NCBI GenBank assembly: GCA_015665315.1
Contig: JADFAK010000084.1
Coordinates: 1-43,318, forward strand
Direction of reading: 5' to 3'
DNA length: 43,318 nt
Source of the DNA: Flavobacteriales bacterium
GTDB taxonomy: Bacteria; Bacteroidota; Bacteroidia; Flavobacteriales_D; Sanyastnellaceae
Positions 9,149-41,397 of this stretch are shown here, piece by piece; the stretch's first letter is position 1; each line of letters begins with the position of its first letter. Under the pieces are notes generated by a model. That model did no database searches. It worked only from the letters and a program-made list of their open reading frames with translations, and had not been told where the DNA came from. The position numbers and the translations under genes are program-made.

Positions 9149-10591
9149 GTGGACAAGATTCAGAATTATATTGACGGTGAATTAGTGGCTCCCCACTCGG
9201 GAAAATACATTGATAATGTAGATCCTTCGAGGGGAAAAGTATACAGTTTGATTCCGGATAGTGATAGTGCCGATATTGATTTGGCAGTAAAGTCGGCGAA
9301 AAAGGCATTCGAAACTTGGTCGACCACTCCACATGGGGAACGAAGTGCTATACTCCAGCGATTGGCAGATCTCATCGGACAAAACCATCAAGCGCTGGCA
9401 GAAGCTGAGTCTTTGGACAACGGCAAGCCGGTTTCTTTGGCTGCAGCGGTGGATATACCCCGAGCGGAGAGCAATATTCGTTTTTACGCCACAGCGATCA
9501 TGCATTTCGAGTCGAAGGCGCATATTATGGAAGGCCGCGGCATCAACTATACGAATAAGAAGCCGATTGGAGTTGTGGGATGTATTTCGCCTTGGAACCT
9601 ACCACTTTATTTATTCACGTGGAAGATTGCACCTGCTTTGGCTTCTGGAAACTGCGTTGTTGCGAAGCCATCCGAGATTACGCCTATGACGGCCTACTTG
9701 CTTTCAAAACTTTGTATTGAGGCGGGCTTGCCCAAGGGTGTACTTAATATCGTGCATGGATTGGGACCTAAGGCGGGTCAGGCAATTGTTTCACATGAGG
9801 ACGTTAAAGCAATCTCGTTTACGGGTGGAACAGCCACTGGTGAGCACATTGCTCGAGAGGCGGCCCCAAAGTTCAAAAAATTGTCGCTTGAGCTCGGAGG
9901 GAAAAATCCGAACATCATTTTTGCCGATTGCGACTTCGACAAGATGTTGCAGACAAGTTTGCGTTCATCCTTTGCGAATCAAGGCCAGATTTGTTTGTGT
10001 GGATCTCGCATTCTGGTTGAGGCTTCGATTTACGAGAAGTTTAGAGATGCATTTGTAGAAAAAGTAGCCCGGATGAAGATTGGTGATCCGCGTGATCCGA
10101 AGACGAAAATGGGAGCTGTTGTATCTGAAGGACACATGGAGAAAATACTGTCCTATATTGAACTGGCCAAAGAAGAGGGAGGGACTGTTCTAACAGGAGG
10201 AAAGCGAGCCCTCCTCGACGGAGAACTCGCTTCAGGGTATTATATTGAACCAACCGTAATTGAGGGATTGGACTATGCATGTCGTACCAACCAAGAAGAG
10301 ATTTTCGGTCCGGTGGTAACGATTACTCCATTTCACTCGGAAGAAGAAGCACTTCAGATGGCCAACAGTACTAAGTATGGTCTGGCCGCCACAGTGTGGA
10401 CGTCAGATCTCAGTAGAGCGCATCGTGTTGCGTCTAAAATCGAGTCAGGAATAGTATGGGTTAATTGTTGGTTGCTGCGTGATTTACGTACTCCGTTTGG
10501 AGGTGTAAAACAATCAGGTGTAGGTAGAGAAGGAGGTTTTGAAGCGTTGGAATTCTTTACAGAAGCACAAAATGTGTGCATTGAATTCTAG
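9149..10591 (+). CDS. ALDH8-type aldehyde dehydrogenase (2-aminomuconic/2-hydroxymuconic semialdehyde dehydrogenase-like)
   Basis: This 480-residue NAD-dependent aldehyde dehydrogenase has the full catalytic set: the PWN motif (Asn150), Lys173, general base Glu248 in LELGGK, and nucleophile Cys282 in NQGQICLC. The ICLCGSRI motif and the NCWLLRDLRTPFGG segment near the C-terminus match ALDH8 enzymes. Those oxidise 2-aminomuconate 6-semialdehyde in the kynurenine pathway, or 2-hydroxymuconate semialdehyde in aromatic degradation. No other catabolic gene is adjacent, so the substrate is not fixed by context. A stop at 9134 leaves GTG 9149 as the only usable start. A terminator is not obvious after the stop at 10591, where a small convergent ORF begins 2 bp later. 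Confidence 0.9.
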   Translation: MDKIQNYIDGELVAPHSGKYIDNVDPSRGKVYSLIPDSDSADIDLAVKSAKKAFETWSTTPHGERSAILQRLADLIGQNHQALAEAESLDNGKPVSLAAAVDIPRAESNIRFYATAIMHFESKAHIMEGRGINYTNKKPIGVVGCISPWNLPLYLFTWKIAPALASGNCVVAKPSEITPMTAYLLSKLCIEAGLPKGVLNIVHGLGPKAGQAIVSHEDVKAISFTGGTATGEHIAREAAPKFKKLSLELGGKNPNIIFADCDFDKMLQTSLRSSFANQGQICLCGSRILVEASIYEKFRDAFVEKVARMKIGDPRDPKTKMGAVVSEGHMEKILSYIELAKEEGGTVLTGGKRALLDGELASGYYIEPTVIEGLDYACRTNQEEIFGPVVTITPFHSEEEALQMANSTKYGLAATVWTSDLSRAHRVASKIESGIVWVNCWLLRDLRTPFGGVKQSGVGREGGFEALEFFTEAQNVCIEF

Positions 10592-34739: not shown

Positions 34740-35054
34740 TTATGGGTTAAAGATCTCAACAACATCCAACAAAGTGCGGAATGCAGCAAATTTACCTTGA
34801 AACCTGCGTGTATGCTCTTCCTGTAATCGGGGTGCTTCCTTCTCCTGATACTCCTCCAGCTTCGCCTCGGATTCACAGGTATATTGCAGGGAATAGGTGA
34901 GTCCGCCCTCTTCAAAAGCCATCACTTTCGACATCTTACATTCTGAAAAGTACCCCGTCTTCAACACATCGGGAATATGCTCTTCTTTCATCCATTTGAG
35001 CCACTCAAGATTGGCGCTCGCATCGATGTTTACAGTCACGTTGTAAATTATCAT
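34740..35054 (-). CDS. DUF4286 family protein
   Basis: A 104-residue protein, MIIYNVTVNIDASANLEWLK, with the family pattern WLKWMKEEHIPDVLKTGYF and YTCESEAKLEEYQEKEAPRLQEEH. It has a ferredoxin-like (dimeric alpha/beta barrel) predicted fold. The function is unknown, but location directly upstream of rsmA is usual in Flavobacteriia. A perfect TATCTTTG box is followed by CACC and then the ATG, the clearest case of the 4-nt geometry. Confidence 0.92.
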   Translation of the reverse strand: MIIYNVTVNIDASANLEWLKWMKEEHIPDVLKTGYFSECKMSKVMAFEEGGLTYSLQYTCESEAKLEEYQEKEAPRLQEEHTRRFQGKFAAFRTLLDVVEIFNP

Positions 35055-35210: not shown

Positions 35211-35666
35211 AAATTGAAAATGGAAAATTCAAAATGATAAATTGGGTTGATCGTTTTGGTGACTTTTCTGGTTGAGATGAGCTTTTGTCGACTAGTCGTT
35301 CGCTTTTGACAGCCTGGTCCTTTCTAAATTATAAATGGAAAATTCAAAATGATAAATTGGGTTGATCCTTTTGGTGACTTTTCTGGTTGAGATGAGATTT
35401 TGCCGACTAGTCGTTCGCTTTTGACAGCCTGGTCCTTTCTAAATAATAAATGGAAAATTCAAAATGATAAATTGGGTTGATCCTTTTGGTGACTTTTCTG
35501 GTTGAGATTAGCTTTTGTCGACTAGTCGTTCACTTTTGACGCTTGGTCCTTTCTAAATTATAAATGGAAAATTCAAAATGATAAATTGGGTTGATCCTTT
35601 TGGTGACTTTTCTGGTTGAGATGAGATTTTGCCGACTAGTCGTTCGCTTTTGACAGCCTGGTCCTT
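35211..35666. repeat. Four-copy ~115-bp tandem repeat
   Basis: Copies start at 35211, 35326, 35441 and 35555 (the third is 114 bp), each opening with an AAAATTCAAAATGATAAATT-type segment. Every copy contains the perfect 10-bp palindrome CGACTAGTCG. Copies 1 and 3 read GCTTTTGTCG where copies 2 and 4 read ATTTTGCCG, pointing to a duplicated 230-bp dimer. No ORF passes through. Confidence 0.93.
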
Positions 35667-35983: not shown

Positions 35984-35991
35984 TAGCTTTG
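35984..35991 (+). promoter_or_regulatory. -7 box before the AGMO-like gene
   Basis: TAGCTTTG followed by CACC is an exact TAnnTTTG match, with the same CACC spacer as the DUF4286 gene. The codon at the +4 position is ATC, not ATG. Confidence 0.55.
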
Positions 35992-35995
35992 CACC

Positions 35996-37234
35996 ATCGA
36001 TTTAGATCCAATCATACTGTCCATTCCGATTTTTACCTTGTTGATCTTGGTGGAGATGATGTGGGATGCCCGACAAAAGCGAAAATCTCATGCTGGAAAG
36101 TACAGGGTGAACGACGCGCTTACCAATATTTCGTGCGGCATACTCGACCAAGTTTCTGGCATCTTTTCGAAGGTCTTGGTTATTGGAGCTTATGTCGTCG
36201 TTTTTGAATTGGCTTCTGGAATTCGTACGTGGAGTATTCCTTCGAGTGGTTTTTGGTGGGCTTTGGCCTTTATTGCTGTTGACTTCGCTTATTACTGGTC
36301 GCACCGCTTGAGCCATCGGGTGAATTTATTTTGGCTGGGACATGTCGTTCACCACCAAAGTGAGGATTACAATTTGTCGGTTGCGCTTCGACAGGGACTC
36401 TTGCAAAAAGTGTTCATGTTTTGGATCTATTTGCCCCTCGCCTTTGTGGGCTTCCCTCCTGAGTGGTTTGTCCTGTGCATGGCTTTTAATCTCTTGTACC
36501 AATTTTGGATTCATACGGAGGTTATCGATAAAATGGGTGCTTTTGAAGCGGTCATGAATACGCCATCTCACCACCGCGTGCACCATGGAAGAAATCCTGA
36601 ATACATCGATAAAAATCATGCGGGCGTATTTATTATTTGGGACCGGATGTTTGGCACTTTCGCTCAAGAAACGGTACGGCCAACCTACGGAATCACCACA
36701 CCTACAGACAGTTTTAATCCTGTACTAGCCCACACGAAGCCTTTTGCCCAACTGGCTCAAGAGGTGCGCACTGTGCCGGGTTTTTTGGACAAATTGCGCA
36801 TGGTTTTTATGCCTCCAGGATGGTATCCAGCGTCTATGGGCGGAGTAAAACCACCTCCACCTATTACGGGAAAGGAGGTCAAATACAATCGCACTATTCC
36901 CAAGATATTGAACATCTATATCATCGTACAGTACATTGTTGTTTTGGGTATTACTTCAGGTTTTTTATTCACTTTTCATTCTTATAGCACATACGTGCAA
37001 ATGGCTTTTGCTGTAGCAATTGCTTTCTTTGTTTTTACCTTGGGAGATGTGCTCGACAAAAACCCAAGAGGCGTGTATTTGGAATTCATTCGACAGCTCC
37101 TCATTTGCGGAATCGCGAGTTATATTGCTTTTACTTCCAATCCCCTATTCTATTTTCTGGCGGCCGTTTCTGTGCTGAGCAGCCTGTGGTTCCTGTATAT
37201 TCAAAAATCCATTTCCCATGAAGTTGATGGCTAA
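35996..37234 (+). CDS. Alkylglycerol monooxygenase-like (AGMO/TMEM195) membrane di-iron hydroxylase
   Basis: A fatty acid hydroxylase/sterol desaturase superfamily protein of about 412 residues if read from 35996. His boxes are HRLSH (103-107), HVVHH (116-120) and HHRVHH (192-197). The strings SEDYNLSVALRQ, FNLLYQFWIHTE, NTPSHHRVHHGRN and AGVFIIWDRMFGTF are nearly those of animal AGMO. AGMO cleaves the ether bond of alkylglycerols using tetrahydrobiopterin. Several C-terminal helices (NIYIIVQYIVVLGITSG onward) also match AGMO's longer form. The start is uncertain: TTG 36038 cuts TM1 in half, while ATC 35996 gives DLDPIILSIPIFTLLILVE, a full helix, and fits the promoter spacing. The frame overlaps the downstream YhhN gene by 17 bp. 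Confidence 0.87.
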   Translation: MDLDPIILSIPIFTLLILVEMMWDARQKRKSHAGKYRVNDALTNISCGILDQVSGIFSKVLVIGAYVVVFELASGIRTWSIPSSGFWWALAFIAVDFAYYWSHRLSHRVNLFWLGHVVHHQSEDYNLSVALRQGLLQKVFMFWIYLPLAFVGFPPEWFVLCMAFNLLYQFWIHTEVIDKMGAFEAVMNTPSHHRVHHGRNPEYIDKNHAGVFIIWDRMFGTFAQETVRPTYGITTPTDSFNPVLAHTKPFAQLAQEVRTVPGFLDKLRMVFMPPGWYPASMGGVKPPPPITGKEVKYNRTIPKILNIYIIVQYIVVLGITSGFLFTFHSYSTYVQMAFAVAIAFFVFTLGDVLDKNPRGVYLEFIRQLLICGIASYIAFTSNPLFYFLAAVSVLSSLWFLYIQKSISHEVDG

Positions 37235-37904
37235 AATGAGTCTTGTACTGTACGCGATTGTTGCGCTTATCCATATTGTGACCTGCTATTTTGAGGAGTA
37301 CGATGTGGTCAACCATATCTCGAAAGTGTTACTCATGCCTTTGTTGATTCTGGCTGTTTTTTTAGCGCGAGCGCAAATGAAATATTGGGCCCTCCTCATC
37401 GGAGCATTGCTGTTTTCATGGATCGGTGATGTCGTGCTGATCTCAGATGACGAGAGCTATTTTCTCTATGGACTGGGTGCCTTTTTGATCGCCCATATCT
37501 TTTACATTGTCACTTTTAGAAAATGCAAGGACGACAACCATGAGATTCCCATGATGAAGCGCTACCCGCTCACGGCGATTGCAATTGGCGTAGCTGGGGC
37601 GGCCATGTTTTTTAAAATTAAGGACGGACTAGAAGCTATGGAATTGCCTGTATTGATCTACACGGCAATTATTATTACCATGGCTATTCAAGCTCTCAAC
37701 CGACACAAGAAAACAACTGCACGAAGCTTCGAATTGGTCATGATAGGCGCCTTATTGTTCATGGTTTCAGACAGCATTATTGCGTTGAATCGATTCAACG
37801 AACCTATTGAATATGCCTCGATGTGGATCATGCTCACCTATTGTGCCGCTCAATACCTGATTGTAAAGGGAATGATGGCCGCAAAACCCTATGAAGAATT
37901 TTAA
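37218..37904 (+). CDS. YhhN/TMEM86 family lysoplasmalogenase-like membrane protein
   Basis: A 228-residue protein with about eight transmembrane helices and the family motif LLFSWIGDVVLI (Asp71). A second conserved acidic segment is LLFMVSDSIIALNRF in the C-terminal half. Animal TMEM86A/B hydrolyse the vinyl-ether bond of lysoplasmalogens, and bacterial YhhN proteins share the fold. The gene starts 17 bp inside the AGMO-like gene, so the two are translated in tandem. It ends 3 bp before the convergent T9SS operon. The pairing suggests shared work on ether lipids. Confidence 0.88.
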   Translation: MKLMAKMSLVLYAIVALIHIVTCYFEEYDVVNHISKVLLMPLLILAVFLARAQMKYWALLIGALLFSWIGDVVLISDDESYFLYGLGAFLIAHIFYIVTFRKCKDDNHEIPMMKRYPLTAIAIGVAGAAMFFKIKDGLEAMELPVLIYTAIIITMAIQALNRHKKTTARSFELVMIGALLFMVSDSIIALNRFNEPIEYASMWIMLTYCAAQYLIVKGMMAAKPYEEF

Positions 37905-37907
37905 GAC

Positions 37908-39113
37908 CTACTGAAGGACTATTCGCTGCATGGTTGTTCCGCTTTTCACGATGTACATTCCGCTTGGAAGTGCGCTCAAATCCATCCGAATGGTTCCTGT
38001 CTTACTTACTTGCTGAGAAAACACCAAGCGCGATGAAAGGGTATACACCTCAACTAGGTTTGTATTCGAAGCTGGAAGGATAGTTAAGATTCCGGTTGTT
38101 GGATTGGGATAGGTCGACAACGATTCTAGATTGGATTCGTTGATGCTTGTTGGCGCATCTCCAATTTTCGTAACACCTGTACTTGTAGCTACCCATACGT
38201 TATCTTGAGAATCGATAGAAAGCTGAGCAACAGCTGGTCCGGCTAGACCATCGTCTTCGTCGTAGTCAATCCACTCACCACCGACGTAAAGAGAAACTCC
38301 ACCTACAGAAACGAGGTAATCAACATACAATCCCGCCCAAACGCGGCCTTGAGAATCGATTTTCACATCTTCCACAGGATTGATTTCGTGTGGAGCAGGC
38401 AATTCAAAAATAGCGTCGTGGTCTTCAACGTGCTCGTTGCTATTGCTGAAAACTGAAATTCCTGTGTTGGTTCCCATCCACTTTTGGTTGGAAGCATCAA
38501 CCGCGATTGATCGTACGGCAACAGATAACAATCCGTCGTCTTCATTGATCTCGGTGAGGTCGGTACCATCAAACATGAAAGAACCACCCAACCCGGTTCC
38601 GAACCACATGTTTCCGTTGTTGTCTTGAGTCACGTGAGCCACCCCTCCAAATGGCAGTCCATCGGCCGTTGTATAGTTGGTAAATGTACTCCCGTCAAAA
38701 GACGAAACACCGTCGTTGTTACCGAACCAGATAAGTCCGTCGGTGCTTTCGTAAATGTGCTTGATGCGGTCGTCTTCCAGCCCATCATCGGTCGTATAGG
38801 TAGTCCACGTACCGTCCTGAAATTTACTGATTCCGAAATCCGTTCCCGCCCAGAGGATTCCTTGGCTGTCCATGAGAATTCCCCATACTGTATTGAACAC
38901 CAAGCCGTCATCCGTCGTGTAATTGGTCCAGTCGGTTCCGTCGAAGAAGGAAATTCCCTCTTGTGTACCAAACCACACGTTGTCGTCGGCGTCAACATCT
39001 ACGCACAGAACGGCGTTGTTGACGAGTCCATCTTCGGTGGTATAAGAGGTAAACGTTTGCGCGGATGCGCTAATCGTAAAAGCTAAAAAGAGGATTGCAA
39101 TTGATTTTTTCAT
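37908..39113 (-). CDS. T9SS-secreted Reg_prop beta-propeller protein
   Basis: A 401-residue protein from ATG 39113 (MKKSIAILFLAFTISASAQT), which begins a clean signal peptide. About seven two-component-regulator propeller repeats follow, each with a TxDGL and NVWFGTxxGIxxFDG pattern (~20-320). A C-terminal type A sorting domain (YPNPTTGILTILPA ... GMYIVK) ends the protein. Reg_prop blades normally form the periplasmic sensor of hybrid two-component systems; here they stand alone and are secreted, with no kinase domain. It is the last gene of a three-gene operon, 10 bp after the CotH gene. Confidence 0.9.
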   Translation of the reverse strand: MKKSIAILFLAFTISASAQTFTSYTTEDGLVNNAVLCVDVDADDNVWFGTQEGISFFDGTDWTNYTTDDGLVFNTVWGILMDSQGILWAGTDFGISKFQDGTWTTYTTDDGLEDDRIKHIYESTDGLIWFGNNDGVSSFDGSTFTNYTTADGLPFGGVAHVTQDNNGNMWFGTGLGGSFMFDGTDLTEINEDDGLLSVAVRSIAVDASNQKWMGTNTGISVFSNSNEHVEDHDAIFELPAPHEINPVEDVKIDSQGRVWAGLYVDYLVSVGGVSLYVGGEWIDYDEDDGLAGPAVAQLSIDSQDNVWVATSTGVTKIGDAPTSINESNLESLSTYPNPTTGILTILPASNTNLVEVYTLSSRLVFSQQVSKTGTIRMDLSALPSGMYIVKSGTTMQRIVLQ

Positions 39114-39123
39114 GGGTCTACTA

Positions 39124-41397
39124 TTATAGAACAACCAGCTTTTGGATAGCCGATCGATTTCCTTGTGTCAGTTGAATTTGATAAATGCCATGCGACAATG
39201 CCGAAACATCAACAACTTGACGGTCGCCAGTCATGGTCGTTTGCAGCACATATCGGCCATCGATACCAACTATGGTAATCGTGGCGGGCTCCCTGTTTTC
39301 AGTAAGCACGAGTACTTTGTGCGAGCTAGGATTTGGGTAAATTTTAAATTCTAGGGCCTCCTGCTCATACACCGAAACTGGTTCGTTGACGGCATTGAAA
39401 GTAGCGTTCATTTCGACAAAAGGACCCGTCCCATTCGGGAAACGAGCGATCGACTGGTTTTCTCCTACCTCGCCAAATGTTACCGAATCAATGATCGTGC
39501 TGTCGGCGTATGCGATGGAGATAAATTCTCCGAAAGCTGATAGTTGGAAATTGGCGTGCAGACTACCCTCCGACCCTTGCTCATCGGCCCAGACGATCAG
39601 GTATCCATCGGCTTCGACGGTTACATTTGGCATGGCCCATTTAACTGGATTCAAGGGATCATCGGATAAATAGAGTCCGCTAGTAGATATATCGGTATCC
39701 GTGTTGTTGTACAGTTCAATCCAGTCGTCGTAATCTCCACTTCCATCGGTATCTCCGGCTGTGTTGAAGGCCATGAATTCGTTGATCACTAAGTCGGCCG
39801 GATTGATGTTGGACTCCATGGTATAGAATTCGTAGGCCGCGCGCTCGGGTGAAAATCGGCCAGACTCGTCGTTTTCGGCGTATATATAATATTCGATTGC
39901 ATTGCCCACATTGGTGAGTGAGGCCGTGTATATTCCATCGCCTGATACCGCGTCTTGTCCTGTTCCATCGTCGAGCATGGGTGTACGAACAAACAAGCCT
40001 GTGCCTCCAAATCTATAGGCCAAGGTGACCTCGTTGGCGTCAACAACATTTGCGTTTATCGCTAAGTCGCCACCAAGTGAAATAGAAGTGGGAATGGAGC
40101 CGATATCACTAATTTCTGGTGCATTTTCGAAGCCCGGGTAAGTCATTAAAAATTCGGTACGGCCTTCCATCAAATCGATAATTCCCGGGTAGGAAACGAG
40201 GTCGGTAACGGTACTGGTCAAGTTGTTTTCAAAATCCTCGTAGGTGTAAAATTTATTGGTATCGGCCAGCACATCATCGGCGATAAGATCGTGGTAAAAC
40301 TGGGCTCGTGCGAGGTAATCGTCGTTTTGAAAATTCTCCTCCATAATCGTGCGCATGTGTGCCAAATACATTCTACGATAGGTGTCGTTATCGAAGAGAT
40401 TGCGCATCAATGGTCGTGGGAAAACCGACACACTCGAATAGTGATACAGGGGATCCATGGTCATGGCTTCGGCAATGCTGAACCCGTCGTAAAATTCGGA
40501 ATCATCGGTAAGGCGGAAGCTGGCAAAGGACATGTTGAGGTCCCACAGTAGTGGGTTGAACTGACCGTTGAGGTCTTCGAACATATAGTAATTCTGCGAA
40601 AAACCCACATAGCTGTCGAAGTTGATCAAGGCGTAATTGAAGGCATGCATCCACAGTGCGCGGTCGATGTTAAGTACCGGTTCGACGTTGTCAATGTCGT
40701 TGTTGAGGACATCGATGAAGTCTACTAGCTGGGTCCAACCTTGGTCAGACTTCAACTGATACAAGTCGTAATAATCCACTTCGTCGGATCCAGGCGTATC
40801 GCTCAAATTAGAGTTTTCGCCGAAGAGATCGAGACTCGTAGGGTTGCATTTAAAAAAGGCGTGATCGATGTCTACAAAATGTTCGTTGAGGAACTCTTTG
40901 TCTACGGGTTCGACATTGGTATAGAGGCCCCAATAGACGTCGTTGATAAAGACCTTCGCGTAGTTGGCCCTTCCCGCAGGCATGTACTTGCGGCCAATTT
41001 CGTAGGAGAGTACCTCGCGCAAAAAAGAGGGGTCTTGAATGACGTTGGACAGTTTGATTTTATCCTTGCCTTGGTAATGCTGTGAGCCATCGACGTAATC
41101 CAATTTGATATTAAAAGGGTTCTTTGTGTAATCTACACTAGCTGAGCTAAATCCTTTGTATCGAACACCCACATCGGGAAGCATTGTTCCGTCGATTTCT
41201 ACCGAAGCGAGGAGACGTTCTTCTTCTCCTGCAATAAACAAAGCGTCTAGTAGTTCGTCCCAATTGTCTTGGGTGAAGTAGATTTTAATCTCTGGAATAT
41301 GATCTTCGGCATAAAAATCATCCTGCGACCATACCTGCGTTGAAAGCAGCATGGTCATCAGGAGGAAGAGGCTCTGTATTTGCGCTTGTCGCGTCAT
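39124..41397 (-). CDS. T9SS-secreted CotH-type kinase with lamin-tail domain
   Basis: A 757-residue protein with a signal peptide (MTRQAQIQSLFLLMTMLLST). A CotH domain spans ~30-400 with RYKGFSSAS, NYAKVFINDVYWGLYTNVE, NFDSYVGFSQNYYMF (259-273) and WDLNMSF (285-291), the last carrying the expected metal-binding Asp. A chitobiase-like beta domain (~450-530), a lamin-tail domain (~535-650, LVINEFMAFN) and a type A sorting domain (IYPNPSSHKVLVL) complete it. CotH proteins are atypical protein kinases related to Fam20C that phosphorylate secreted or coat proteins. The start overlaps the upstream stop as TAATG, implying coupled translation. Confidence 0.9.
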   Translation of the reverse strand: MTRQAQIQSLFLLMTMLLSTQVWSQDDFYAEDHIPEIKIYFTQDNWDELLDALFIAGEEERLLASVEIDGTMLPDVGVRYKGFSSASVDYTKNPFNIKLDYVDGSQHYQGKDKIKLSNVIQDPSFLREVLSYEIGRKYMPAGRANYAKVFINDVYWGLYTNVEPVDKEFLNEHFVDIDHAFFKCNPTSLDLFGENSNLSDTPGSDEVDYYDLYQLKSDQGWTQLVDFIDVLNNDIDNVEPVLNIDRALWMHAFNYALINFDSYVGFSQNYYMFEDLNGQFNPLLWDLNMSFASFRLTDDSEFYDGFSIAEAMTMDPLYHYSSVSVFPRPLMRNLFDNDTYRRMYLAHMRTIMEENFQNDDYLARAQFYHDLIADDVLADTNKFYTYEDFENNLTSTVTDLVSYPGIIDLMEGRTEFLMTYPGFENAPEISDIGSIPTSISLGGDLAINANVVDANEVTLAYRFGGTGLFVRTPMLDDGTGQDAVSGDGIYTASLTNVGNAIEYYIYAENDESGRFSPERAAYEFYTMESNINPADLVINEFMAFNTAGDTDGSGDYDDWIELYNNTDTDISTSGLYLSDDPLNPVKWAMPNVTVEADGYLIVWADEQGSEGSLHANFQLSAFGEFISIAYADSTIIDSVTFGEVGENQSIARFPNGTGPFVEMNATFNAVNEPVSVYEQEALEFKIYPNPSSHKVLVLTENREPATITIVGIDGRYVLQTTMTGDRQVVDVSALSHGIYQIQLTQGNRSAIQKLVVL

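Follow-up and report, generated by a model that had tools for sequence, protein, structure and literature searches.

Does a bacterial locus in which a gene resembling alkylglycerol monooxygenase (AGMO) runs into a gene of the YhhN/TMEM86 family encode a small unit for taking apart ether lipids? The pair lies on the plus strand of contig JADFAK010000084.1 from a Flavobacteriales bacterium, and we refer to the whole 43,318-nucleotide stretch that was analyzed as the window. The frame of gene 1, which encodes an AGMO-type FA_hydroxylase membrane protein, spans 35987..37234 with its stop codon at 37232-37234. Gene 2 starts with an ATG at 37218 and encodes a YhhN/TMEM86-family protein of 228 amino acids (37218..37904, plus strand, its stop codon ending at 37904). 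An earlier note, made from the DNA letters, had placed both genes in this way, and the frame ends confirmed the overlap of 17 bp that it gave (37218..37234, plus strand). The three strings it had quoted, SEDYNLSVALRQ, FNLLYQFWIHTE, and NTPSHHRVHHGRN, were all found in the gene 1 protein. Its description of the genes as fused did not hold, as the window carries two separate overlapping frames and a single frame with both proteins occurred in none of 100 loci (L044-L143), which rules out a gene fusion. The neighboring frames (34740-35054 and 37908-39134) both run on the minus strand; thus, the gene pair stands alone on its strand. In the intergenic region upstream of it, a 115-bp unit is repeated four times in tandem (35211-35666), and this unit has 40 matches across many contigs of the source genome. 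About 25 kb from the pair, the window also encodes an aldehyde dehydrogenase (9149-10591) that most resembles 2-hydroxymuconic semialdehyde dehydrogenase (585 bits against a cut-off of 693), and we found nothing that ties it to the pair.

The start of gene 1 had been put at 35996; however, the codon there is ATC, which is no standard start. Of 19 relatives tried, 13 could be aligned at this place (six could not), and the ATC aligns with ATG in 10 of them and with GTG in three. The first ATG, GTG, or TTG in the gene 1 frame is the TTG at 36038. The protein probably begins at one of these two codons, 35996 or 36038. From the sequence, a rare start codon, a start at TTG 36038, and an assembly error would account equally well for the ATC.

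Gene 1 matched the Pfam family FA_hydroxylase (PF04116) with an E value of 1.2e-28 and 100.6 bits (cut-off 31), and this core (36257..36658, plus strand) holds nine histidines. The genome encodes three paralogues that score alike (83-111 bits), and so the score does not discriminate the AGMO type. A weak match to AGMP_C (PF24858), the C-terminal domain of alkylglycerol monooxygenase, was found at residues 305-380, the place expected for that domain, with an E value of 7.6e-4 and 19.9 bits, below the cut-off of 28.3. Among 10 scanned relatives, including two short forms, AGMP_C gave five weak matches and none over the cut-off, and none of the three other FA_hydroxylase proteins of the genome matched it at E 0.1.

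In human AGMO, nine histidines and six further residues (Q162, D233, N235, Y236, W243, and D244) are described as essential in the accessible part of PMC7911779. Our human reference sequence is a provisional one that matches all 15 of these published positions. Gene 1 has the nine histidines (H103, H107, H116, H119, H120, H173, H193, H196, and H197) and five of the six further residues (Q133, D205, N207, W215, and D216), with H208 in place of human Y236, and thus carries 14 of the 15. All three paralogues also possess the nine histidines; one of them (L003) likewise reaches 14/15, lacking Q162, and the other two (L001 and L004) reach 12/15. Because L003 equals the window protein in this respect, the residue count alone proves little. 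The identity of the residues is more telling, since Q162 is missing in all three paralogues and the window protein has Q133 at that place. Across 103 AGMO-type rows, 97 carried all 14 residues besides position 236 and six carried 13, with the full set of 15, and hence all six non-histidine residues, present in 34. The window protein shares 36% identity with the provisional human AGMO sequence over 398 aligned positions, and its identity is 20-24% to the paralogues and 30-53% to the AGMO-type rows.

The AlphaFold2 model of gene 1 (pLDDT 88.8) begins with five helices (residues 5-26, 38-74, 85-108, 137-151, and 155-171) and ends, after the core, with four more (303-329, 332-353, 358-378, and 384-411). 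The latter form a C-terminal extension (36902..37228, plus strand), defined by the model helices and including the place of the weak AGMP_C match. According to the available text of PMC7911779, AGMO has nine membrane segments arranged as five plus four, and the long helices of the model, if read as membrane segments, would fit this layout. Another FA_hydroxylase type of this genome was therefore ruled out for gene 1 by four lines of evidence, namely Q162, the C-terminal four-helix part with its AGMP_C match (both missing in the paralogues), overall similarity, and the tree described below, and the earlier assignment to the AGMO type stands. A sequence search of the PDB with gene 1 returned only four antibody chains (E 0.37-0.59), a search with its profile gave no match, and Foldseek against the PDB found nothing at E ≤ 0.001 for the model of either gene.

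The position of gene 1 within the AGMO family was examined in two trees. In a tree of 107 rows, built by a quick method in which the paralogues were designated as the outgroup, the AGMO-type rows form one group; the window protein and four others make up a starred group, every member of which is followed by a YhhN gene. A more careful, unrooted tree of 64 rows has a branch supported at 98/97 that sets apart 44 long window-type rows; on its other side are the provisional human sequence, long proteins of the type found in family f6, and short bacterial proteins. Human AGMO is represented in both trees by this one provisional sequence, which has a long branch and takes no settled place on its side; the quick tree placed it similarly. 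The window protein thus appears, by sequence, to be a member of a family of bacterial AGMO-like proteins in which animal AGMO is also included. A close tie to the animal enzyme, as had been claimed from the quoted strings, was not borne out, given that the human sequence lies across the 98/97 branch from the window type (with the reservation that the tree is unrooted and the branch long). Because of this separation, together with the equal residue count of L003, we hold the ether-lipid reading of the locus less firmly.

The same separation favors a possible alternative, which we take seriously, namely that the AGMO-type enzyme oxidizes a C-H bond of some bacterial lipid or metabolite other than an ether and that YhhN processes the resulting product or a related lyso-lipid. 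Precedents for such chemistry are OlsE, which hydroxylates ornithine lipid, and PRUB680, an AGMO-like enzyme that cyclizes prodigiosin. The best NCBIfam match of gene 1 is indeed OlsE, at 67 bits for a cut-off of 475; however, the three other FA_hydroxylase proteins of the genome fit OlsE better (121, 79, and 76 bits).

The nature of the partner bears on this alternative as well. Gene 2 matched Pfam YhhN (PF07947) with an E value of 2.5e-48 and 164.6 bits (cut-off 25.6), and its AlphaFold2 model (pLDDT 90.6) has eight long helices, from which the membrane helices were read. For TMEM86A/B, eight catalytic residues have been proposed, most but not all of which were needed when mutated, as reported in the accessible text of PMC11994398. 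Gene 2 has all eight (K36, G70, D71, H93, G177, S184, D185, and Y208). Of these, G177 was assigned by the published spacing, which puts the glycine seven residues ahead of the serine, and it does not vary among 10 aligned rows; H93 is replaced by glutamine in 4 of 25 linked YhhN proteins. The Pfam match and these residues bear out the earlier placement of the second gene in the YhhN/TMEM86 family. A PDB sequence search with gene 2 gave no match, and the weak Foldseek matches of its model in the PDB include rhodopsins and G protein–coupled receptors. The available part of PMC9052158 describes lysoplasmalogenase activity for the YhhN proteins of Legionella and Mycobacterium tuberculosis. Tested bacterial members of the partner's family thus cleave vinyl ethers, which speaks against a non-ether substrate; the same source, as far as it is accessible, speaks for one in stating that many microorganisms carry YhhN without machinery for plasmalogen synthesis. 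According to this source, plasmalogens are also missing from aerobic bacteria, a claim contradicted by the plasmalogens of myxobacteria (PMC9131029, accessible part).

The argument for a joint function depends on whether the two genes recur side by side. We queried 296 genomes from the phylum in two ways, with the protein of gene 1 (E ≤ 0.001; 198 with a match) and with PF07947 (54 with a YhhN match). Setting our threshold for the AGMO type at a best E value of ≤ 1e-30 left 77 genomes, 43 of which also had YhhN. A YhhN gene lay directly downstream of the AGMO-type gene on the same strand in 15 of the 296 genomes, which represent five genera in three families: two genomes from the window's family f1 (G000 and G045), three from f3 (G080, G138, and G122), and 10 from a single genus, g8 of f6 (G057, G218, G068, G206, G222, G174, G142, G025, G285, and G245). 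Random placement would yield 0.37 genomes under a generous model (43 genomes, six AGMO-type genes each, 6 kb, 4.2 Mb). Since these 15 genomes come from no more than five genera, it is fairer to count five genera in three families, which is still well above this expectation. Seen from the YhhN side and among the matches listed, 16 of the 54 genomes were linked (15 downstream and one upstream), and 38 had no adjoining AGMO-type match (matches down to about E 2e-15). The one upstream case (G210, locus L138) has the order reversed, with a YhhN frame upstream of and overlapping a short AGMO-type frame that gives no AGMP_C match. In a further genome (G190), YhhN lies ~2.8 kb downstream of the AGMO-type gene, and another (G170) has kept a YhhN of the linked type with no AGMO-type match beside it among the matches listed.

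A collection of named genomes gave the same arrangement in 9 of the best 80 of 593 confirmed relatives, including Pedobacter frigiditerrae, P. rhizosphaerae, and P. foliorum. Because only the best 80 of the 593 were kept, this count favors near relatives; 5 of the 80 loci end within 150 bases after the AGMO-type gene, and some may belong to the same species as members of the 296-genome set. Among the loci titled as other phyla, none had YhhN downstream within the flank examined. In 23 linked loci besides the window, YhhN is second and on the same strand, with the open frames -101 to +65 bases apart. We also looked for a third gene with a fixed place across lineages (frames of at least 100 amino acids, groups in at least three loci) and found none. 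A third partner was thus rejected, the only cross-lineage neighbor matches being two loose ones: one connects L062 to five loci of the f6 type, 3-4 kb upstream, and the other connects L065 to the window group, in a very different position. Co-occurrence across the phylum was set aside as evidence: AGMO-type genes were found in 43 of 54 genomes with YhhN vs 34 of 242 without, figures that are confounded by relatedness; inside the class, the corresponding counts were 38/41 vs 22/32.

On the AGMO-type tree, the linked state changes four times, the linked lineages being the window type, the Pedobacter type with L062 and L065, the f6 type, and L056. On the YhhN tree, it changes nine times, at least three of which are forced by starred branches. 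Repeated joining and an ancient linkage followed by losses fit these trees equally well. Adjacency could also simply reflect common descent within a few groups, with the two proteins acting independently in membrane lipid upkeep. This would agree with the small share of YhhN genomes that are linked (16/54 among the matches listed) and with the concentration of the 15 linked genomes, of which 10 are from one genus, three from f3, and two from f1. However, linked pairs occur in separate lineages of both proteins, their neighbors are mostly unrelated, and the order is reversed in L138, and we consider shared ancestry alone a quite improbable explanation. The recurrent linkage proposed for this pair was thus found in several protein lineages and in differing surroundings of Bacteroidota, in 15 of 296 genomes, and this recurrence side by side suggests a small unit for lipid breakdown.

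We then compared the residue that departs from human AGMO with the linkage. Histidine occupies position 208 in all 24 YhhN-followed proteins, the window included, vs 20 of 47 unlinked long ones. On supported branches, this amounts to only three independent contrasts (sign test p 0.25-1), and the Y236-to-His change was therefore not upheld as a mark of linkage and stays a hint.

If the locus handles ether lipids, the genome might supply the AGMO cofactor or the lipids themselves. It is 99.27% complete by the estimate of the tool and encodes two proteins of the PTPS family, one with a C-x5-HGH motif (L042), which we take to be the biopterin-type PTPS, and one with C-x3-HGH (L043), presumably QueD. 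The L042 gene, on contig C38, overlaps a gene for GTP cyclohydrolase I. We found no match in the genome to pterin-carbinolamine dehydratase (PCD; Pterin_4a, PF01329) or to aromatic amino-acid hydroxylases (Biopterin_H, PF00351). The genes for tetrahydrobiopterin synthesis and recycling to which the earlier note had pointed are thus present in part: PTPS and GTP cyclohydrolase I were found, and PCD and Biopterin_H were not. PTPS was dismissed as a mark of AGMO cofactor supply, since 287 of the 296 genomes match it. Five of the 15 linked genomes had PCD and 10 lacked it, and within the class PCD was found in 39 of 60 genomes with an AGMO-type gene vs 7 of 13 without, showing no association that would make it a companion of these genes.

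For ether-lipid synthesis, CarF/PEDS1 (PF10520) gave no match in the source genome and exceeded the cut-off in 1 of the 296 genomes. In that genome (G158, protein L041), the AGMO-type and YhhN genes are on different contigs. AGPS is assumed here to carry an FAD-oxidase_C domain. The single FAD-oxidase_C protein of the genome matched best with GlcD (437 bits, under the cut-off of that model), and no AGPS-named model was among the 12 listed for it. Thus, two known markers of ether-lipid synthesis in aerobes were not found in this genome. PlsA/R and ElbD are other routes to ether lipids. Given that CarF/PEDS1 is absent and the FAD-oxidase_C protein is GlcD-like, it is doubtful that the host makes ether lipids itself, and the same two results add to the case for a non-ether substrate. 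The lack of a CarF/PEDS1 homologue beside a member of a vinyl ether hydrolase family would also suit an exchange of roles, in which the AGMO-type enzyme desaturates a saturated ether lipid to a vinyl ether, as CarF/PEDS1 does, and YhhN clears the excess or damaged product. However, no AGPS candidate to make the saturated ether was found in the genome, and we know of no AGMO-family enzyme that desaturates, which leaves this idea very improbable.

We tentatively favor, as the best-supported reading of the families, residues, overlap, and recurrent linkage observed, a predicted two-gene unit that takes ether-linked chains off lyso-lipids or alkylglycerols. AGMO itself is described in the accessible text of PMC7911779 as cleaving alkylglycerols and lyso-alkyl lipids. 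The AGMO-type protein, acting as a di-iron enzyme, would place a hydroxyl group on the carbon beside a saturated ether oxygen, and the YhhN protein would add water to the vinyl ether in lipids of the lysoplasmalogen type. The two reactions would lead through the same kind of hemiacetal to a fatty aldehyde and a glycerol or lyso-phospholipid head, and a single operon would thereby cover alkyl and alkenyl forms. This reading presumes the substrates, the reaction, the electron donor, co-transcription of the genes, and a lipid pool shared by both enzymes. Because the genome has neither CarF/PEDS1 nor an AGPS candidate, the lipids would most likely be taken up from elsewhere. We can also imagine, although we consider it unlikely, that in aerobic bacteria that make no plasmalogens, YhhN has the natural role of working with an AGMO-type oxygenase, the two enzymes dismantling or editing an undescribed ether lipid of Bacteroidota, bacterial or scavenged, by an electron route without PCD-based biopterin recycling. 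The histidine found for the essential tyrosine in all 24 YhhN-followed proteins may mark such a changed electron route.

AGMO and lysoplasmalogenase have both been described in mammals (PMC9131029, accessible part), and we found no description of an AGMO-type/YhhN operon in the open-access literature, a scope that leaves subscription journals mostly outside. A recurrent AGMO-type neighbor is a concrete lead on the substrate of YhhN in carriers without plasmalogen machinery. The pair also offers bacterial proteins for study, considering that AGMO is unstable and that its purification failed (PMC7911779, accessible part), and that PDB sequence searches returned nothing meaningful. Furthermore, the use of ether lipids by aerobic Bacteroidota becomes directly testable, for instance in the named Pedobacter species that carry the pair.

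Compared with known systems, gene 1 shares with AGMO (TMEM195, EC 1.14.16.5) the FA_hydroxylase core, the nine histidines, the counterparts of Q162, D233, N235, W243, and D244, and the 5+4 helices of its model. It differs in having histidine for Y236, a sub-threshold AGMP_C match, and an overlapping YhhN gene, and in lying across a supported branch from the provisional human sequence; its cofactor and substrate are predicted from the family. OlsE, the ornithine lipid hydroxylase, belongs to the same superfamily (NF052566), but gene 1 falls far under its cut-off and the three other FA_hydroxylase proteins of the genome score higher. PRUB680 of Pseudoalteromonas rubra is, according to the accessible texts of PMC7911779 and PMC6667630, an AGMO-like enzyme that cyclizes prodigiosin. 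We liken it to gene 1 by this description, not by sequence, as another bacterial AGMO-like oxygenase; it differs in acting on a pigment. It is the main warning against reading a substrate from the family, and such a relative leaves room for other substrates of gene 1. With the YhhN/TMEM86 lysoplasmalogenases (Legionella, M. tuberculosis, and TMEM86A/B), gene 2 shares PF07947, eight long helices, the eight residues, and, where compared, their spacing; it differs from them in adjoining an AGMO-type gene, and its substrate is a prediction. Together, the pair is real and recurrent, a new pairing of two known families and not a new kind of system.
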